Origin: Spirochaetaceae bacterium | GTDB taxonomy: Bacteria; Spirochaetota; Spirochaetia; B11-G9 | NCBI GenBank assembly: GCA_015493635.1 | Contig: WGCU01000077.1 | Location: 23,442 to 87,441, forward strand | Direction of reading: 5' to 3' | Length of the DNA stretch: 64,000 bases | Part shown: piece by piece, positions 40,783 to 62,559 of the stretch | How positions within the stretch are numbered: position 1 is the first letter of the stretch | Layout of the letters: the number at the start of each line of letters is the position of its first letter | Notes under the pieces: model-generated | Databases searched by the model: none | What the model was told of the DNA's origin: nothing | Seen by the model: the letters and a program-made list of their open reading frames with translations, nothing else | Program-made: the position numbers and the translations under genes

Positions 40783-40811
40783 TTGCACATTGGATTGCTT
40801 TCTGGTATGGT
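40783..40811 (+). promoter_or_regulatory. Predicted promoter of pur operon
   Basis: TTGCAC-N17-TATGGT, placing the start site just upstream of the riboswitch. Confidence 0.45.
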
Positions 40812-40821
40812 CAGCTTAACA

Positions 40822-40888
40822 GCTCATATATTTCTGGAGATAGGGTCCGGAAGTTTCTACAGGCAGCCGTAAATTGCCTACTATGAGC
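40822..40888 (+). ncRNA. Purine riboswitch, guanine class predicted
   Basis: GCTCATATATTTCTGGAGATAGGGTCCGGAAGTTTCTACAGGCAGCCGTAAATTGCCTACTATGAGC: P1 CTCATA/TATGAG, L2 GATAGGG, J2/3 TTTCTAC, P3 AGGCAG/TTGCCT, L3 CCGTAAA, and ACU before P1 3' strand (C at the specificity position). Confidence 0.93.
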
Positions 40889-40926
40889 GGAGACAGCTTC
40901 TATATCAGACCTCTCTTCTTTTTATA

Positions 40927-53100: not shown

Positions 53101-53385
53101 CCCCGTCTGCCCTCCCATGGTCGGAAGGATTGCATCGGGCCTTTCCTTTTCTATTATCGCCTCGAGATACGGAACCTCCAGCGGCTGGGTATAGATCCTG
53201 TCCGCCAGCCCCGGGGTTGTCATTACCGTTGCGGGGTTTGGATTTACCAGAATAACCGTGTACCCTTCCGCCTTGAGTGCTTTTACCGCCTGGGTTCCGG
53301 AGTAGTCGAACTCGCAGGCCTGACCAATTACAATAGGTCCTGATCCTGGAATAAGAATCTTTTTTATGTCTTCTCTCTTCGGCAT
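50176..53385 (-). CDS. carB: Carbamoyl-phosphate synthase large subunit
   Basis: 1069 aa; '[48 protein letters not shown]' and the second synthetase half. Confidence 0.97.
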
Positions 53386-54530
53386 TACTTGTTCTCCGTG
53401 TTTTTAATTATCTCATCGAAAATCCAAAGGGAATCGTGAGGTCCCGGAGCTGCCTCCGGATGTAACTGAGTAGTGATTATGGAAAGCTTTTTATGCTTCA
53501 ATCCCTCTACGGTATTGTCGTTGGAGTTTCTCATCCAGACCTCTACATCCTCAGGCAGAGTCTCTTCGTCGATCATAAACCCGTGGTTCTGGGATGTTAT
53601 CAGAACCTTATCATTCTCCATGTTCCGTACCGGGTGGTTTATTCCATGGTGCCCGAACTTCATCTTTACCGTTTTGGCTCCCAGGGCAAGTCCTATTATC
53701 TGATGTCCGAGACAGATCCCCGAAAGAGGGATCTTTCCTGCAAGATCCTTTACCTGATCAATTATGTGGGTAAGCACCGCGGGATCTCCGGGGCCGTTTG
53801 AAACAAGAACCCCGTCACAGCCGGTTGCCGTAATCTCCCGGGAGGTAAATGTTGAAGGTACCACAGTAACCCTGCATCCTCTATCAAGAAGGCTGCGGAC
53901 TATGTTCTCCTTTATTCCGCAGTCCACCACAACAATATGGGGAGAGCCCTTTGGATTATACCCGGCCTTCTCCGTTGTCCCGGTTTCGGAAACCAGATTG
54001 CATCCCTCCATGGAGGGGCAGGTACTTAAGAACGAAAGGGTCTTCCGCTTTTCATCATCCGAAAGAACCGGAGAATCCCCCCGGGGTCTTACAATAACTC
54101 CGTTGCAGCTTCCCTCGTCCCTGAGCTTAAGGGTAAGGCTCCGGGTATCTACACCGGTGATACCGCTTACTCCGTTGTCCGAAAAATACTTGTCCAACGG
54201 CATTCTTCCCCCCGGAACAGGTCCTTTATACAGAGAACGGACTATCATGGCAGAGAGCCCCGGTTTACCGTCCATGGACTCCGCCCACTTTAAGTCTACC
54301 CCGTAGTTCCCTATATGGGGATAGGTCATAACAACCATCTGCCCGGTATAGGAGGGATCTGTGGCTATCTCCACGTACCCGCTCATTCCCGTATTGAATA
54401 CAACTTCACCGAACGGGATCTGATGCTTAAGGCTCAGATCTTCCACTAAAGGGGGAATAGCCCCGAAGGCCTCCCCGGCATAAGCCGTGCCGTCCTCCAG
54501 CACAAGAAAACATGGTTTATTCATGCCCAT
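53385..54530 (-). CDS. carA: Carbamoyl-phosphate synthase small subunit
   Basis: '[37 protein letters not shown]', '[14 protein letters not shown]', '[34 protein letters not shown]', '[11 protein letters not shown]'. Confidence 0.97.
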
Positions 54531-54602
54531 TACTATGAACTCTCCTGTAATTACTGTCAATATAAGAAGTTATGTAAAATTTTAATAGGTTTATCATTCA
54601 AT

Positions 54603-55664
54603 TTAATACTCCCCGTCCATACCCGCAAAGGGGTCGAAACCGTACTCATCGGCAGGGATCTTCACAGCCCCCGGATTCTTCTTAAAGGTATTCTTCTTAA
54701 TTCCGAAGGCTTCTGTTATGTTGCTGAAGGTAAGATCTTCCAGGTCAGAATCCCCCAACCCTCTGCTTTTAAGAATCTCCATAAAAGTTCCGTAGAACTG
54801 GAGTACCGGAATCCCTGAAAAGTTTTTAACCCTCTTTTCCTCCTCCGCATGGGGAGCATGGTCTGTCTCTATCCAGTCTATCCGGCCGTCCAGGAGAGCC
54901 TCAAACATCTCTTCCTGCATCCTCTTTTCCCTGAGAGGGGGATTTACCTTGAGAAGGATCCCGTCGGGGCCCTTCATGTCATCCACAGAGAGCAGCGCAT
55001 GATGGGGAGTTATTCCGCAGGTAACCCTGCAGGACAGCTTTTTCCGGCCATCCTCTATTACCTTCAGACTTTCCGGTACCGAGACGTGGCATATATGGAG
55101 AGTACCTTTGAATCCTCTCTCCTGTGCCCACCTTATCTGATCCCTTACCGATTCAACCTCCGCTTCAGGCGGCCGGGCGGCAAGATGGGTTTCAGGCCTT
55201 TCGGGATCGAACAAATCCGGCTTTTGAAGACTCTCCTTCTCGCAGTGAACCATAAGCACTCCGGTATAGTTCAGGGATGAGAGAATTTCAAAAACACTTC
55301 TCTGCCCGGCGGGCTCTGTAATTCCCATATTCCCTGTTGAGTGGCCGGCAAACATCTTCAAGCCAGCAACCGAGGGGAAGAGATCTTTCCATGCCTTTAC
55401 TACCTCCGCTATCTGTTCCGGATCAGGGGTAAGGCCTGCAAGAATCCCATGGAACAGAGGCAGGCCGAGTTTACTCAGGGCTTTTTCACCCTTCTCAAGC
55501 CTGGAGAGAATAACATCTCTTGAAGTCAGAGGGGGATCGGTATTGGGCATCTCGAAAACACCGGAAAGCCCGCTTCTCCATGCAGTAAGAAAACCGTGCT
55601 CCATGGTCTCCTTGTGTTTCTGTGAAGTCCAGTCCCTTAGGTGGACATGGGGATCAATTCTCAT
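54603..55664 (-). CDS. pyrC: Dihydroorotase
   Basis: 353 aa; 'MRIDPHVHLRDW', 'FEMPNTDPPLTS', 'GLKMFAGHSTGNMG', 'DWIETDHAPHAEEEK'. Confidence 0.93.
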   Translation of the reverse strand: MRIDPHVHLRDWTSQKHKETMEHGFLTAWRSGLSGVFEMPNTDPPLTSRDVILSRLEKGEKALSKLGLPLFHGILAGLTPDPEQIAEVVKAWKDLFPSVAGLKMFAGHSTGNMGITEPAGQRSVFEILSSLNYTGVLMVHCEKESLQKPDLFDPERPETHLAARPPEAEVESVRDQIRWAQERGFKGTLHICHVSVPESLKVIEDGRKKLSCRVTCGITPHHALLSVDDMKGPDGILLKVNPPLREKRMQEEMFEALLDGRIDWIETDHAPHAEEEKRVKNFSGIPVLQFYGTFMEILKSRGLGDSDLEDLTFSNITEAFGIKKNTFKKNPGAVKIPADEYGFDPFAGMDGEY

Positions 55665-57363
55665 TCATCTCACTCCATTTAAACCAGGTTCCCTCTCTGC
55701 AGGTAAGATGCCCTCCGCACTCACACTCGCCGCAGAGGCCGACTCCGCACTTTGTGTGGGTCTCTATGGAAAGGAGAACATCATCGGCGCTTCCCCTTTC
55801 GGCGGTAAAGGCATAGGCAGCCTTCTCCATAAATGGCAGGGGCCCTATCGTATAAAGGGCGCAGCCTGCAGCGGAGATCCCGCCGTCAAAGGGAGAAGTA
55901 TTCTCCCTCAGAGCTTCCATCATACGGTTTATAACCCTTCCCGCCTTTCCCCCGTCGGGAACTGCGGTGTAGCTGCCGAAGCCAAGGAAATCATCAGCCA
56001 TCGCTTCCTGCCCCGGAGTACTCATTCCGTGAAAGGTATGAACACTCTTACCTTCGCCTGCAAACTTTTCAGCCAGCTTTAAAGCCGAGGCCAGTCCCGT
56101 TCCTCCCGCGGCGATCAGAACCGTTTCCTTGTCAGTCTCCGGAGCACTCTTACCGTACAGTCCCCTTACAAAGATCCTGTCCCCGGCCTCAAGCTCCATA
56201 ACCCTGGATGTAAAAATCCCCTTCTTTTTAATAAGGAAGGTAAGAGGATCGCCGCTCATTATGGAAAAGGGTTTTTCTCCGGTTCCGGGAATCCAGAGGA
56301 AAGCGAACTGCCCTGCGTCGTACTTAATCTTTCCGTCAAGCTGAATAATCCTGACATCGCCGGGCAGATCCTTTATCTGCGTAACGGTATGGGGTTCGTA
56401 CTTCATACCGCTGTCCGTTCTTTTCAGTCTTGAAGCACTGTCTCCCCCTTCGACAAGATCAGTCTTAAGGGATTTAAAGAAATCCTGCCAGTTCCAGGGT
56501 TCAACGGAGGCAAAGAGGGAGCCTATCCCCGCAACGTCTGCACCGGCGTTCATCATGTTCCTTACATCGTTTCCATTTTCGATTCCACCCATACCTATTA
56601 TCGGGATATCCGGACCCAGGGCCTTCCGTATCTCCCCTACCTTCTCCAGGGCAGTCTCCTTTATCCACCTTCCGGACATCCCCCCCTTGTTGCCGCTGGC
56701 ATTCAGCAGCAGGGGTGCTCCCGACACCGGTTCCGTATACAACCTGGGTCCCACAGTATTTATTGCAGTAATACCGTCCGCTCCTCCCTCTACCGCGGCA
56801 AGGGCTGTCTCCCCTATCGATTCCACGTTGGGAGTAAGCTTTGCAAAGACTAGGGCATCAGTCGACTTTCTTATCTCTATAAGGTAGGTATATACAACCT
56901 CCGGGTCCTTGCCTATGGCCATGCCGTATCCCCCGGTTGCATGGGGACAGGAGAGGTTCAGTTCGATTATGTCCGCAAGACCTTCAAAGTACTTTACCAG
57001 AGTTACAAACTCCTCCACACTGTTTCCTGATACCGAAACATTCAGGATTGAGCGCAGAGGCTTTTTTGAGATCATTTCCTCCAGCCCCTTCAGCCCCTCT
57101 TCCATTCCGGGGTTACGCAGACCTACCGCATTTCCGAAACTTCCCTCTTCGGGTTCTACAATAACCGGCTCGCGGTTACCCGGATTCGGCTTAACCTGAA
57201 AACTCTTGGTGGTTATAAGACCGATCTCCGGGATATCGTTATCCACCCTCCGGACCATTCCCGGGTTTGTCGTTACAACACCGGATACGGTGGCAAAAAA
57301 GGTGGAGCTGTTTACCGGATTATTGCCCTTTAAAAGTTCCAGAACTTTCTTCTTATCCATCAT
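55654..57363 (-). CDS. Fused dihydroorotate dehydrogenase (PyrD-like) + PyrK-like electron-transfer subunit
   Basis: 569 aa; N-terminal 'ELNLSCPHATGGYGMAIGKDPE...FAKLTPNV...GGADGITAINTVGP...IPIIGMGGIENGNDVRNMMNAGADVAGIGSLF'; C-terminal FNR-like 'AGGTGLASALKLAEKF' and 2Fe-2S 'CGVGLCGECECGGHLTCREG'. Confidence 0.92.
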   Translation of the reverse strand: MMDKKKVLELLKGNNPVNSSTFFATVSGVVTTNPGMVRRVDNDIPEIGLITTKSFQVKPNPGNREPVIVEPEEGSFGNAVGLRNPGMEEGLKGLEEMISKKPLRSILNVSVSGNSVEEFVTLVKYFEGLADIIELNLSCPHATGGYGMAIGKDPEVVYTYLIEIRKSTDALVFAKLTPNVESIGETALAAVEGGADGITAINTVGPRLYTEPVSGAPLLLNASGNKGGMSGRWIKETALEKVGEIRKALGPDIPIIGMGGIENGNDVRNMMNAGADVAGIGSLFASVEPWNWQDFFKSLKTDLVEGGDSASRLKRTDSGMKYEPHTVTQIKDLPGDVRIIQLDGKIKYDAGQFAFLWIPGTGEKPFSIMSGDPLTFLIKKKGIFTSRVMELEAGDRIFVRGLYGKSAPETDKETVLIAAGGTGLASALKLAEKFAGEGKSVHTFHGMSTPGQEAMADDFLGFGSYTAVPDGGKAGRVINRMMEALRENTSPFDGGISAAGCALYTIGPLPFMEKAAYAFTAERGSADDVLLSIETHTKCGVGLCGECECGGHLTCREGTWFKWSEMNEN

Positions 57364-58254
57364 CTACAGAAGACCTCCTGCCTCTTCGTTAAACCTGAGA
57401 AAGGCATCCACACATACTTCGTCCCAGTTCCGGGGCACCCCTTTCTTTTCTTTTACCCATGGATGAGTAATGGCACTCGAAACGTTTACCCGGATAAGGG
57501 GTGTCTCGTACCGTACTTCTTTCATTATCCCCGCTACGTCGGAGAAACTCCCCCCCTGACTTCCCACTCCGGGGATGAGGAGAGGTATGTTTCTGCCTCC
57601 GAAAAGCAGGGCGAGATCCTTCAGTTCCTGTGGAGATGTGGCACCTGTTACGGCTCCGGTTCCGGGATACTTCCAGGCCCAGGAGATAATCTTTTCCCCA
57701 ACCGCAGTAAAGAGCTTCTCTCCCCCTTTCGCAAGCCGCAGGTTCTGAAACTCCTTTCCGCCGGGATTAGATGTTCTGTCAAGAACATAGGCTCCGCCCC
57801 CCCGGCTTACAGCCTCTTTCAGGAAAGGCTCTACCGAATCGCTGCCCATGTAGGGCGACACAGTAACACTGTCGCATCCCCAGGAGACAAACCCCTCAAG
57901 GGCATAGTTTTCAGACGACCGGGCTATGTCGCCCCTTTTGTAATCCAGGATTACCGGGATATCCGGGAAGCTCTTCTCGATCAGGGAAAGTATCTTTGCC
58001 AGAGCAAGGGAACCGGGGAACCTCCCCTGCCGGGGTCTGTCCAGACAGGAGAAGAAACCCAGATTGGGCTTGAATGCACCGGGCATTACGTTCTTCCTGA
58101 TCAGTCCGGAAAGAATAGTTTCAAAAAAGGAGGTTATCCTCTCTTCCGTCTCCAACCCCTCACCGGGCAGGTAATCGGGTACAGGATCCAGTCCCATACA
58201 GAGAACACTTCCGCTTTTTTCTGCCGATACTTTCAGTTTATTTATGAAATCCAT
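57364..58254 (-). CDS. pyrF: Orotidine-5'-phosphate decarboxylase
   Basis: 'SVLCMGLDPVPDYL', 'FKPNLGFF', 'IPVILDYKRGDIARSSENYA', 'LLIPGVGSQGG'; ATG 58254 follows GGGGGAGAAGA. Confidence 0.94.
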   Translation of the reverse strand: MDFINKLKVSAEKSGSVLCMGLDPVPDYLPGEGLETEERITSFFETILSGLIRKNVMPGAFKPNLGFFSCLDRPRQGRFPGSLALAKILSLIEKSFPDIPVILDYKRGDIARSSENYALEGFVSWGCDSVTVSPYMGSDSVEPFLKEAVSRGGGAYVLDRTSNPGGKEFQNLRLAKGGEKLFTAVGEKIISWAWKYPGTGAVTGATSPQELKDLALLFGGRNIPLLIPGVGSQGGSFSDVAGIMKEVRYETPLIRVNVSSAITHPWVKEKKGVPRNWDEVCVDAFLRFNEEAGGLL

Positions 58255-58891
58255 TCTTCTCCCCCCATTCAAAGGGAGCCTTTCTCCACTCCCTCAAGCT
58301 TTCCAGATCTTTTTCCTCTATGTATCCGATTCTTTCAGCCTCCTGAATCAGCTCGTCGTAGGTAAAAATCGGAATTGTTCTGCAAACCGGGTCAAGGGAT
58401 GCGAAGTTTTCGGACCCCTTATCAAGCCCGTAGTTGAATATGGAAAGGCAGTACTCTATATCCCCGTCAGCCTCTCTTATGGCTTTTACCGCCTCTATGG
58501 AGCTTCCCCCCGTCGAGACAAGGTCTTCTATAAGAACGACCTTTTTACCTTCGTACCCCTTGTCAGCAGGCAGCCCCTCGATCCTGTTCTTGAGTCCGTG
58601 AGCTTTAGGCTTACTCCGCACGTAGGTAAGGGGAAGATCAAGCTTGTCCGCCAGAGTTGTCGCATGGGGAATTCCCGCTGTGGAGGTCCCGGCAATGACG
58701 TCCGCTTCTATATGGTTTTCCTCCATTATGGAGATAAAGGCTTCTGCAATCATCGACCGGTATCTTTTCTCTTTAAGAAAGATCCTGTTGTCGTTGTACA
58801 CCGGCATGTAGTATCCCGATGCCCAAAGGAAAGGCTCCTTCGTATTCAGCTTGAGAGCCTCTATATCAAGTATTGTCTTTATCAATTCCAA
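58238..58891 (-). CDS. pyrE: Orotate phosphoribosyltransferase
   Basis: 217 aa; 'LNTKEPFLWASGYYMPVYNDNR', 'GTSTAGIPHATTLADKLDLPLTYVRSKPKAHGLKN', 'KVVLIEDLVSTGGSSIEAVKAIREA'. Confidence 0.95.
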   Translation of the reverse strand: MELIKTILDIEALKLNTKEPFLWASGYYMPVYNDNRIFLKEKRYRSMIAEAFISIMEENHIEADVIAGTSTAGIPHATTLADKLDLPLTYVRSKPKAHGLKNRIEGLPADKGYEGKKVVLIEDLVSTGGSSIEAVKAIREADGDIEYCLSIFNYGLDKGSENFASLDPVCRTIPIFTYDELIQEAERIGYIEEKDLESLREWRKAPFEWGEKNGFHK

Positions 58892-60465
58892 ACCTCCCTG
58901 AAGGTATGTACTTTTTCACAATAATCACACTTGAGGGTGTCTTCGGAAATCCTGGTAAACTCCGGCAGAACGTTCTCTTTGTGTGAAGGATGACTTATAC
59001 AGTCCGGGTTTTTACAGCTCATGGATTCAAGGTTATAGACCCTCGGCGGCAGGCTGAGTCTCAGTTTTTTTACAATCTTGCCGTTTCCGATTACGTTCAG
59101 TGTGGCACCCGGGGCTATCGCCGCAAGCCTTTTTATGGTCGATTCATCCGGAGCCTCCGCTCCCGGCCGGAAGATAATTCCCTTCATTGTTCCGGGCTTC
59201 TCCTTGGAGGATGATATCCACTCTCCCCCCTTACCAAAGAGCTTCATTACACGGATAATCCGCGACATATGCTCCCTTATCTCCTTCTCATCGTCTCCCC
59301 GGCATATATGATCTATAACTATTCCGTTTGTTATAGGGTTGACCCCTTCGGAGTACCGCTTGGGAGTACGGCCGCTGCCGGCCTGAATTTCCTCTATAAA
59401 CGGTTCCTCTTTTTCTTCCGGTTTTTCAAACTCCGCTTTAAAGTCATCTCCCAGTTTTCCCGAAACCAGACCGAGGAGAACAATCCTTACAAGCTTCCCG
59501 TTCATGGACTGCTCCTCCCATCCGTTAAGACTTGTGGAATCCAGAAAGGCCGGGATTGTGGGATGCTCTTTGTGCCGCGGGAGGGGATGGTAGAAGACCG
59601 TTCCTGATGGAATCCTGTCCATATATTCCCGTTTAAAGGTTATCCTGGCCCTCAGGGAGTCGGCAATCTTCAGGATATCATCCCCCATTCTCTCCAGCTG
59701 AGGGCGGGTGAAGTACCATATACCTGCAATTTCTTTCTGCCCTAAATACTCCTCTATGGAACCGAAAACCCTAACCTTGTACCCCTTGGCCTCCATCTCT
59801 TTTTGGTAGTGATCAGGCAAGGCCAGCTGAGGCGGAGCAACAAGATCAACGCTAACAGAATTAAAAACATTAAGCCCCTGTACTTTTGAATGTACAGTTC
59901 TGCCGTGAAAGAGGTCGCCTATCAAAGCTATGTGGATGGAAGACCGGTCCCCGTTCAGTTTTTCGAGAAAGGTAAACTCATCGAGAAGCTCCTGGGTGGG
60001 ATGTTCATGCTTGCCGTCCCCGGCATTAATAAAAGAAGGCGGAACGTCCATACCGTTCCGCCCTGCAAATTCCCGTCCGTTTTTCTCAAGCCACCGGCAC
60101 ACGCCTTCCAGGCGGCTCCGTACTATAAAGACTGAATTGTCATAACCGGAAAGGGTATTGAAGGTATCGGCATAGCTTTCCTTTTTGTTTATTGACGAAG
60201 CGGATACGTCAAGATTACTCAGTTTAACCCTGTGAAACTCCGAAGCATTCTTGAAAGACTCCTTGGTCCTTGTACTGGACTCCAGGAACACCTCGTAAAC
60301 ACCGAAATCACCGTTGTTGATACGGAAAGCTTCGAGCTTTTCCTTATTTTTCTCCTTAAGAAGTGCCTTCAACTCCCTTGTCTTTTCAAACAAGTACAGT
60401 CTCTCCTCCAAAGAGAAATCGGCTATTACCGTCAGCGACCGTCCCTTAAACCTGTTTTTTCCCAT
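58882..60465 (-). CDS. pyrBI: Fused aspartate carbamoyltransferase catalytic + regulatory chains (PyrBI)
   Basis: 527 aa; catalytic 'FLESSTRTKESF', 'HEHPTQELLDEF', 'HPLPRHKEHPTIP'; regulatory zinc domain 'CKNPDC...CDYC'. Confidence 0.94.
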   Translation of the reverse strand: MGKNRFKGRSLTVIADFSLEERLYLFEKTRELKALLKEKNKEKLEAFRINNGDFGVYEVFLESSTRTKESFKNASEFHRVKLSNLDVSASSINKKESYADTFNTLSGYDNSVFIVRSRLEGVCRWLEKNGREFAGRNGMDVPPSFINAGDGKHEHPTQELLDEFTFLEKLNGDRSSIHIALIGDLFHGRTVHSKVQGLNVFNSVSVDLVAPPQLALPDHYQKEMEAKGYKVRVFGSIEEYLGQKEIAGIWYFTRPQLERMGDDILKIADSLRARITFKREYMDRIPSGTVFYHPLPRHKEHPTIPAFLDSTSLNGWEEQSMNGKLVRIVLLGLVSGKLGDDFKAEFEKPEEKEEPFIEEIQAGSGRTPKRYSEGVNPITNGIVIDHICRGDDEKEIREHMSRIIRVMKLFGKGGEWISSSKEKPGTMKGIIFRPGAEAPDESTIKRLAAIAPGATLNVIGNGKIVKKLRLSLPPRVYNLESMSCKNPDCISHPSHKENVLPEFTRISEDTLKCDYCEKVHTFREVWN

Positions 60466-60484: not shown

Positions 60485-60598
60485 TTAAAAGGACAAAAAA
60501 AATACCGGCAAAAAAGCCGGTAAACAATTCACAAAAAAAGAGGAAATACCATCCCCATCAAAAATGATGTCTGGTTTTTTCCTCTTTTCTCTCTCCAT
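60485..60598 (-). CDS. Putative pyr operon leader peptide (37 aa)
   Basis: MEREKRKKPDIIFDGDGISSFFVNCLPAFLPVFFLSF*; begins within about 5 nt of the predicted start site and runs through both leader terminators, stopping upstream of pyrBI. Confidence 0.45.
   Translation of the reverse strand: MEREKRKKPDIIFDGDGISSFFVNCLPAFLPVFFLSF
60495..60522 (-). terminator. Second leader terminator upstream of pyrBI
   Basis: Minus strand TACCGGC-TTTTTT-GCCGGTA then TTTTTTTT. Confidence 0.85.
60533..60587 (-). terminator. First leader terminator upstream of pyrBI
   Basis: Minus strand AAAGAGGAAA...TTTCCTCTTT stem (60578-60587/60537-60546) enclosing CATCATTTTTGATG hairpin, then T7 run. Confidence 0.75.
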
Positions 60599-60609
60599 CT
60601 TGAAAAGAA

Positions 60610-60652
60610 ATTGTAAAGAATGTCGGGCAGGGTGTAAAGACCCTGCTCCCGA
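60610..60652 (-). promoter_or_regulatory. pyr operon promoter with dyad around the -35
   Basis: Minus strand TTTACA-N17-TACAAT; dyad TCGGG-AG-CAGGGT-CTTTAC-ACCCTG-CCCGA (60623-60652) brackets the -35 hexamer. Confidence 0.65.
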
Positions 60653-60702
60653 TTTGGTTAAACTTTTTTGATTAATCTTGATCATCCCTGAATATTGCCA
60701 CT

Positions 60703-62559
60703 CTAGATATAGTAACCGTCTTGAATAGCATCCTGTGCATCTCCCACTATTCTTGCATCACCTATAACATGCACCGGCATTGTTTCAGACAGTTCTTTCC
60801 CAAGAGGATTATTGGACTTCATCCCTGAGGAAACAATAATAAGATCTATATTTTGAAAGACAATATCCTTATCATTCCTTTTTGCATAAACAGTGCTCCC
60901 CTCAATCTTTGAAATATGGGTGTAATCACTGAAAATAACACCTTTCTCCTTCATCTCTTTCAGAGAAAGCTTCTTGGATATCATCTCCATGTCCTGACCG
61001 AAATCGGTAGAACGCTTTACAATGATAATATCATTGTTCTCCGGAAGGAGAGCTGTCGCTATATCAACGCCCGTCAGTCCTCCTCCGATTATAAGAACCC
61101 TTTTATTTTTTGGAAGTTCACTGTCCAGAAGGATATCAGCCCCCCTAAAATCATTTAGCCCCTCTATCGGCGGAATTGAAGGGACAGCTCCGGTTGCAAG
61201 AACAACAGCATCATACTTCCCCTCCAGATCCTCTTTTGTTGCTTCCTTTGAGATACTATGTACACCGGTTCTCTCCATTTCCATCACGTAGAAAGGGATG
61301 AGCCGCTCCATTGATCTTTTATGAGGAGTTTTTGAAGCCATTATGAACTGACCGCCAAGCCTATCCTTTTCATACAAGTCTACCAGGCACCCTCTTGAGG
61401 AAAGCTGTAAAGCCGCTTCCATTCCCGCGGGTCCGCCGCCTACAACAGCATACCTTTTCTTTTCCTTGCATTCTTTTCTTTCAGGAACCTTCTGACCAAC
61501 AGATGGGTTCACAAGACATCCCAATCCTTTACCCGCTTTTACTCCGCCAAGACACCCCTGGGCACACTCCATACACGGACGTACGGCCCCTGGAACCTTG
61601 CCGGTGTACTTTCCGATAAAGTCGGGATCTGCGACAAGAGCTCTGCCGGCTGCAATATAATCAGCATGAAACTCATGCTTTAGTCTGTCGATATCCTCCC
61701 CTGTGTTTACCTTTCCCACAAAGATAACCGGTACCGTTACTTCCTTCTTTATCTTTCCTGCCAGCTCCCATGTTTTTCCCTTGGGCACAAACATATGCTG
61801 AAAGAACCACGGCGGAGTTGAGCAGAGACTTCCCGCAGAGACATGAAGTGCGTCGGCCCCTCTTTCTTCCAGGAGCCGGGCAAAGGTGACCATCTCCGGA
61901 AGCTTGATACCGTCGGGAATCATCTCGTCAGCACTCATTCTTACGATAACCGGGATGGAAACCGCCTGCTTAACAGCATTGAGAATCTCAAGGGGAAACC
62001 GTACTCTATTCTCAAAACTACCGCCGTACACATCATCCCGGCCGTTTACCTTGGAAGAAAGGAACTGTGCGGCAAGATATCCGTGCCCGAACTGAAGCTC
62101 TACAATATCAAACCCAGCCTTCTCTGCACGTATTGCAGAAGTTACAAAGAGACTAACTATTCCTTTGATCTCTTCAATGGTCAGCTGTTTTGGTACCGGC
62201 CCGCCTGCTTCACATGCTGAACCGTATGAAGATACAAAATAGTTGCCGGATATCTTGGGATTTGCCATCCTTCCCGGATGGTTCAGATGTGCTATTACCT
62301 TCGTTTCTGTCTCCTGAATCATGGATACAAGAGCTGAGAGACCTTCAATTTTATCATCATTGTCAATACCAAGCTGGGTCGGCACTTCTCTTAACCCCTT
62401 GTCCATATACAGCGGTTCCAGAGCTATGGCGCCAAGGTACGTTCTTCTTTCCCGGTAAAAATCAAAATGTTTCTCCGTGACCCTTCCGTCACCTTTCGTA
62501 TATCCCAGTTTCACCGGGGGCATGATAAATTCATTTTTTAATGATAACATATACAACAC
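60703..62559 (-). CDS. NADH:flavin oxidoreductase / 2,4-dienoyl-CoA reductase-like (OYE + FAD/NAD domains)
   Basis: 618 aa; 'PVKLGYTKGDGRVTEKHFDFYRER', 'FDIVELQFGHGYLAAQFLSSKVNGRDDVYGGSFENRVRF', 'CMECAQGCLGG', 'YAVVGGGPAGMEAALQLSSRG'. Confidence 0.9.
   Translation of the reverse strand: MLYMLSLKNEFIMPPVKLGYTKGDGRVTEKHFDFYRERRTYLGAIALEPLYMDKGLREVPTQLGIDNDDKIEGLSALVSMIQETETKVIAHLNHPGRMANPKISGNYFVSSYGSACEAGGPVPKQLTIEEIKGIVSLFVTSAIRAEKAGFDIVELQFGHGYLAAQFLSSKVNGRDDVYGGSFENRVRFPLEILNAVKQAVSIPVIVRMSADEMIPDGIKLPEMVTFARLLEERGADALHVSAGSLCSTPPWFFQHMFVPKGKTWELAGKIKKEVTVPVIFVGKVNTGEDIDRLKHEFHADYIAAGRALVADPDFIGKYTGKVPGAVRPCMECAQGCLGGVKAGKGLGCLVNPSVGQKVPERKECKEKKRYAVVGGGPAGMEAALQLSSRGCLVDLYEKDRLGGQFIMASKTPHKRSMERLIPFYVMEMERTGVHSISKEATKEDLEGKYDAVVLATGAVPSIPPIEGLNDFRGADILLDSELPKNKRVLIIGGGLTGVDIATALLPENNDIIIVKRSTDFGQDMEMISKKLSLKEMKEKGVIFSDYTHISKIEGSTVYAKRNDKDIVFQNIDLIIVSSGMKSNNPLGKELSETMPVHVIGDARIVGDAQDAIQDGYYI

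Follow-up and report, generated by a model that had tools for sequence, protein, structure and literature searches.

A short ORF placed at a terminator suggests pyrBI-like, ribosome-coupled attenuation of the pyr operon in Spirochaetia

The pyr operon leader described here is probably a transcription attenuator that is worked by a ribosome and is sensitive to UTP, like that of E. coli pyrBI. Judged from sequence comparisons, ribosome coupling is the well supported part of this reading; UTP as the signal, translation of the leader and termination at the terminator next to pyrBI (T2) are predicted. A ribosome at the stop codon of the short leader ORF would sit over the 5' arm of T2, and a U-rich stretch directly precedes T2; ribosome-coupled attenuation is the best reading. 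The core that appears to be conserved consists of a promoter, the short ORF, the U-rich stretch, T2 and pyrBI. The recurrence of this layout in a large part of the Spirochaetia suggests that a ribosome on a tiny ORF decides whether the operon is on or off. A sequence-only reading of the locus had proposed a leader-ORF attenuator resembling that of E. coli pyrBI, and the stop placement, the frame constraint and the U-rich stretch in relatives support this.

The window, that is, the whole 64,000-nucleotide stretch of DNA that was analysed, comes from a draft genome of 3.27 Mb that is about 98% complete. Features of the locus are collected in Table 1. The sequence-only reading had listed a promoter, an ATG, a 37-codon ORF, two terminator-like hairpins and pyrBI downstream, and this list is correct. 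pyrD was named by its Pfam domain DHO_dh, and pyrE, pyrF, pyrC and carA were named by inspection of the ORF translations. The leader promoter aligns with TTGAC(A/C/T) promoters in four relatives. An oxidoreductase gene lies upstream of the leader on the same strand and ends at 60703. A perfect 7-bp inverted repeat, GCAGGGT-CTTTAC-ACCCTGC (60627-60646, minus strand), spans the -35 box; it can be read as a weak terminator for the oxidoreductase gene or, alternatively, as an operator, and it did not show up in the alignment of the four relatives. Elsewhere in the window there is a purine riboswitch aptamer (40804-40903, plus strand; RF00167, 69.9 bits).

Table 1. Positions of the pyr operon leader elements and of the operon genes in the window.
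Feature	Position	Strand	Details	Basis
Promoter	60610..60638	-	TTTACA (60638-60633), 17-nt spacer, TACAAT (60615-60610)	10/12 consensus matches
Interval from -10 box to leader ATG	60599..60609	-	11 nt, TTCTTTTCAAG	Sequence
Leader ORF	60485..60598	-	ATG at 60598, 11 nt past the -10 box; 37 codons + TAA; putative peptide MEREKRKKPDIIFDGDGISSFFVNCLPAFLPVFFLSF	Sequence; KKP(D/E) segment and frame common to four relatives
T1 hairpin	60533..60587	-	10-bp core stem AAAGAGGAAA/TTTCCTCTTT (60587-60578/60546-60537), inner hairpin, T7 (60539-60533)	
U-rich stretch	60523..60552	-	60% T, directly 5' of T2; RNA polymerase may pause here	
T2 intrinsic terminator	60495..60522	-	TACCGGC/GCCGGTA (60522-60503), T8	Sequence; conserved in relatives
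pyrBI	58882..60465	-	Aspartate carbamoyltransferase, catalytic and regulatory chains fused; opens the operon; ATG at 60465, 19 nt 3' of the leader ORF stop	Pfam OTCace_N, PyrI, PyrI_C
Remaining operon	53385..58891	-	pyrE, pyrF, pyrD (pyrK-like C-terminal part), pyrC, carA	ORF translations

pyrBI homologues were gathered from whole genomes and named contigs, and near-identical leaders were removed. The working set consists of 63 distinct upstream regions with a T2 shortly 5' of pyrB. T2 is missing from a further group, in which pyrB often directly follows another gene; the layout thus occurs widely in the class Spirochaetia, though not in all of its members. Another 20 upstream regions are from more distant families. 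Many of these have pyrB directly behind another gene and lack T2, and at least three (L144, L145 and L155) have a T2-like hairpin. Four records whose titles name Clostridia, Clostridiales or Ruminococcaceae MAGs (L088, L100, L103 and L110) also have a fused pyrBI, preceded by an identical or similar leader layout; mislabelled bins or transfer would explain this.

It is only by comparison with relatives that the leader ORF can be told from a chance ORF. In 51 of the 63 non-redundant leaders, an ORF (ATG start, at least 12 codons) has its stop codon no more than 15 nt from the first nucleotide of the T2 stem, compared with an expectation of 10.4 from dinucleotide shuffles of the sequence before T2 (sd 2.6, maximum 18, 100 rounds). 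The other 12 leaders have no stop within this distance. When a Shine-Dalgarno sequence is required as well, 35 are observed versus 2.3 in the shuffles. If the choice of ORFs is widened, 39 of 60 have their stop 1 to 15 nt 5' of T2. No comparable ORF ends near the stem of any of 26 other terminators from the same loci and the window.

Promoter scores reach at least 9.5 in 43 of the 63 leaders (5.1 in shuffles), and the gap between T2 and pyrB has a median of 25 nt and is at most 30 nt in 39 of 63. These values bear on the alternative in which T1 and T2 serve just to end transcription from upstream and pyrBI is transcribed from a promoter of its own beyond T2. The same-strand gene ending upstream of the leader would fit such a role, but a good promoter precedes the ORF in most genomes, and in most of them the gap leaves no room for a promoter between T2 and pyrB. 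A pyrBI promoter in that position was rejected on this spacing, and the alternative is very improbable indeed.

The frame of the leader ORF appears to be under weak purifying selection. Pooled pN/pS in 12 groups of related leaders is 0.63 in frame versus 1.00 and 0.84 in the other frames. Column shuffles of the leader alignments give 0.86 (sd 0.08) with 1 of 500 as low as the observed value; since pairs within a group are not independent, the pN/pS result is supportive, not conclusive. Peptide constraint is absent in some leader groups. In the genome's own family, five peptides (MEREKRKKPDIIF, MIKRRGKKPDDIL, MIRTRGKKPDDIF, MEISERKKPDNVL and MEISKRKKPENVL) share KKP(D/E) near the N-terminus, the Lys and Pro codons show synonymous changes, and no indel is found between the ATG and the T1 region. 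The sequence-only reading had named a frame not conserved in relatives as evidence against its proposal; the frame was found to be conserved over the N-terminal two thirds of the ORF. Leader peptides are unlike one another across groups, which suggests that it is position, not peptide sequence, that matters.

By the usual spacing from -10 to +1, transcription of this leader probably starts at CAAG within the interval before the ATG. The 5' UTR would then be about 1-5 nt long and the leader mRNA near-leaderless, with translation predicted to begin at the leader ATG. The frame stays open beyond this ATG to another in-frame ATG at 60685 (66 aa), which was rejected as the start because it is 5' of the promoter and is not shared by relatives. 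Starts were compared among leaders whose promoter scores 9 or more. In this set, 26 of 27 Shine-Dalgarno-led ORFs begin 18-56 nt past the -10 box. Where a Shine-Dalgarno sequence is missing, 15 of 17 begin 7-11 nt past it, a distance seen in 1 of 27 of the Shine-Dalgarno-led ORFs (Fisher p 9e-9), and the leader in the window belongs to this 7-11 nt group. Such starts indicate that several families, and not one odd genome, have near-leaderless initiation, in support of the near-leaderless start claimed in the sequence-only reading.

Across 49 loci, the bases at positions 1-5 past the -10 box of pyr leaders are pyrimidine-rich (0.61-0.80) and are followed by purine-rich bases, more so than at control promoter-like sites. 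The pyrimidine-rich bases could reflect a UTP/CTP-sensitive choice of start site or an ordinary discriminator. A more elaborate scheme would make the Spirochaetia pyr leader an independently evolved two-step pyrimidine sensor. In it, UTP-dependent pausing before T2 would be combined with a choice of start site that depends on UTP/CTP through the pyrimidine-rich interval ahead of the near-leaderless ATG, and the nucleotide pool would also determine whether transcription yields a translatable leader mRNA. This scheme is quite unlikely.

Class-wide, T content is about 0.20-0.24 at positions -90 to -51 relative to T2 and 0.39-0.44 in the last 30 nt. The T fraction is 0.42 at -30 to -1 versus 0.27 at -60 to -31 (Wilcoxon p 1.6e-9). 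For the same two intervals the values are 0.60 and 0.23 in this genome and 0.40 and 0.17 in E. coli pyrL (MG1655), which was used as a yardstick. Some genomes have no striking U-rich stretch, and the comparison with other terminators (p 0.017 against 9) is based on few controls.

The U-tracts had been read as Phe codons, and seven Phe codons are indeed present in this leader, where they fall in the U-rich stretch. Many relatives have leaders with none to two. U-richness is conserved and Phe content is not, so the Phe codons look like by-products of the U-rich stretch. A classical amino-acid attenuator sensing phenylalanine would account for the seven codons, but not for their scarcity in relatives, their location in the U-rich stretch or the target, which is pyrBI in a pyrimidine operon. 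Phe sensing was rejected because Phe content is not conserved and there is no amino-acid target gene; its probability is next to negligible. Coupled attenuation could also respond to a signal other than UTP, the leader reporting ribosome supply, translation rate or the general NTP level and the U-rich stretch being incidental. The best supported features, stop-codon placement and frame, agree with this, as does the finding that the leader codons have no conserved amino-acid signature across groups. However, the operon is one for pyrimidine synthesis, T richness peaks right before T2 and E. coli pyrL has the same profile; a signal other than UTP is unlikely.

Control of T2 by PyrR, by another RNA-binding protein or by a riboswitch, with the ORF incidental, was also considered. 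The leader has a sub-threshold match to the PyrR RNA site (21.1 bits, cut-off 54, E 0.83), but ORF geometry and frame are conserved, and control of this type is very unlikely. The Rfam search gave nothing at threshold for this site in the leader and no match at threshold in the loci of 17 relatives, which agrees with the absence of a PyrR-binding consensus in the sequence-only reading. The best match to the PyrR protein in this genome scores 38 bits versus a cut-off of 138; the cut-off is passed by B. subtilis and others in the control and by 3 of 59 relatives. Relatives G013, G016 and G038, with PyrR above the cut-off, are without full-length fused pyrBI, a hint that the leader-peptide layout substitutes for PyrR control and vice versa.

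The T1 region has a predicted fold of -25.1 kcal/mol (z = -5.2), and none of 1000 shuffles is as stable; the z value for the whole leader is -4.7. From the ATG to T2 the fold is -25.3 kcal/mol here compared with -11.0, -12.5, -11.0 and -6.7 in four relatives. T1 was rejected as a conserved second terminator because it is strong in this genome only and corresponds to weak structure in the four closest relatives. It appears to be a terminator-like or pause hairpin that is special to this genome. The leader ORFs of the four closest relatives stop 3-11 nt 5' of T2. In the alignment, a 5-nt gap near T1 carries the frame of this genome beyond the stop of its relatives, and the ORF reads through both T1 and T2, ending 19 nt before pyrBI. 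A frame that runs through two tandem terminator-like hairpins, as the earlier reading described it, is therefore found in this genome but is not general. With a strong T1 and a run-through frame in one draft genome, a real change and an assembly fault are both possible, and the exact working of the leader may differ here from that in relatives. E. coli pyrL also passes through its terminator, so run-through is compatible with function.

In E. coli pyrBI, RNA polymerase pauses at low UTP and the ribosome that follows blocks the terminator (PMC10135430; PMC5021804). In this species, termination falls from about 90% to less than 10% when the stop codon ahead of a terminator is brought from 28 bp to 5 bp away, and a stop codon more than 27 nt before the terminator does not repress termination (PMC4824070). 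In the mechanism proposed for the Spirochaetia leaders, transcription would begin a few nt before the leader ATG and a ribosome would load immediately. RNA polymerase would next traverse the U-rich stretch ahead of T2. With plentiful UTP it would outrun the ribosome, T2 (here perhaps T1 too) would fold and transcription would end. With scarce UTP the polymerase would be slowed in the U-rich stretch, and the ribosome would catch up and cover the 5' arm of T2. T2 would then stay unfolded, and pyrBI and the remaining operon would be transcribed. The ribosome would act from a stop codon at the T2 base in most relatives; the ORF of this genome crosses T1 and T2, as pyrL crosses its terminator.

The locus thus appears to have the features of the E. 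coli pyrBI type: a leader ORF running toward or through a terminator before pyrB, and a U-rich stretch 5' of that terminator, with pyrBI as the target. The ORF starts at -88 relative to the terminator stem in E. coli and at -76 here, and its stop lies past the start of the stem by 44 nt in E. coli and 35 nt here. The two systems differ in that pyrL has a Shine-Dalgarno sequence and a 5' UTR whereas the leader in the window is near-leaderless, E. coli has one terminator whereas T1 is added in this genome, and pyrB and pyrI are fused here. In most Spirochaetia, unlike E. coli, the stop codon is at the base of the terminator. By eye, no similarity between the leader peptide and pyrL is apparent, and common descent is not claimed. 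Attenuators of the Bacillus PyrR type (Rfam RF00515) likewise combine a pyr operon with an intrinsic terminator in the leader, but here there is a leader ORF instead, with no PyrR above the cut-off and no site at threshold. Leaderless amino-acid leader peptides are known from Streptomyces (PMC8079986). They too are followed by a terminator, but they carry codons for the amino acid of their own operon, whereas the operon here is for pyrimidines.

Attenuation of pyrBI through a translated leader is already known from E. coli. The search of the open literature found no papers joining pyrBI or pyrimidine attenuation with spirochaetes, and leader-ORF pyr attenuation in spirochaetes is apparently undescribed so far. 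The leaders form a set of natural variants, with near-leaderless or Shine-Dalgarno starts and with stops at or beyond the terminator, which permit direct tests of how the pacing of ribosome and RNA polymerase leads to readthrough. If the proposed reading is true of this layout in the many families of Spirochaetia that keep a fused pyrBI, ribosome-coupled pyrimidine control would be wider than known or would have arisen more than once.
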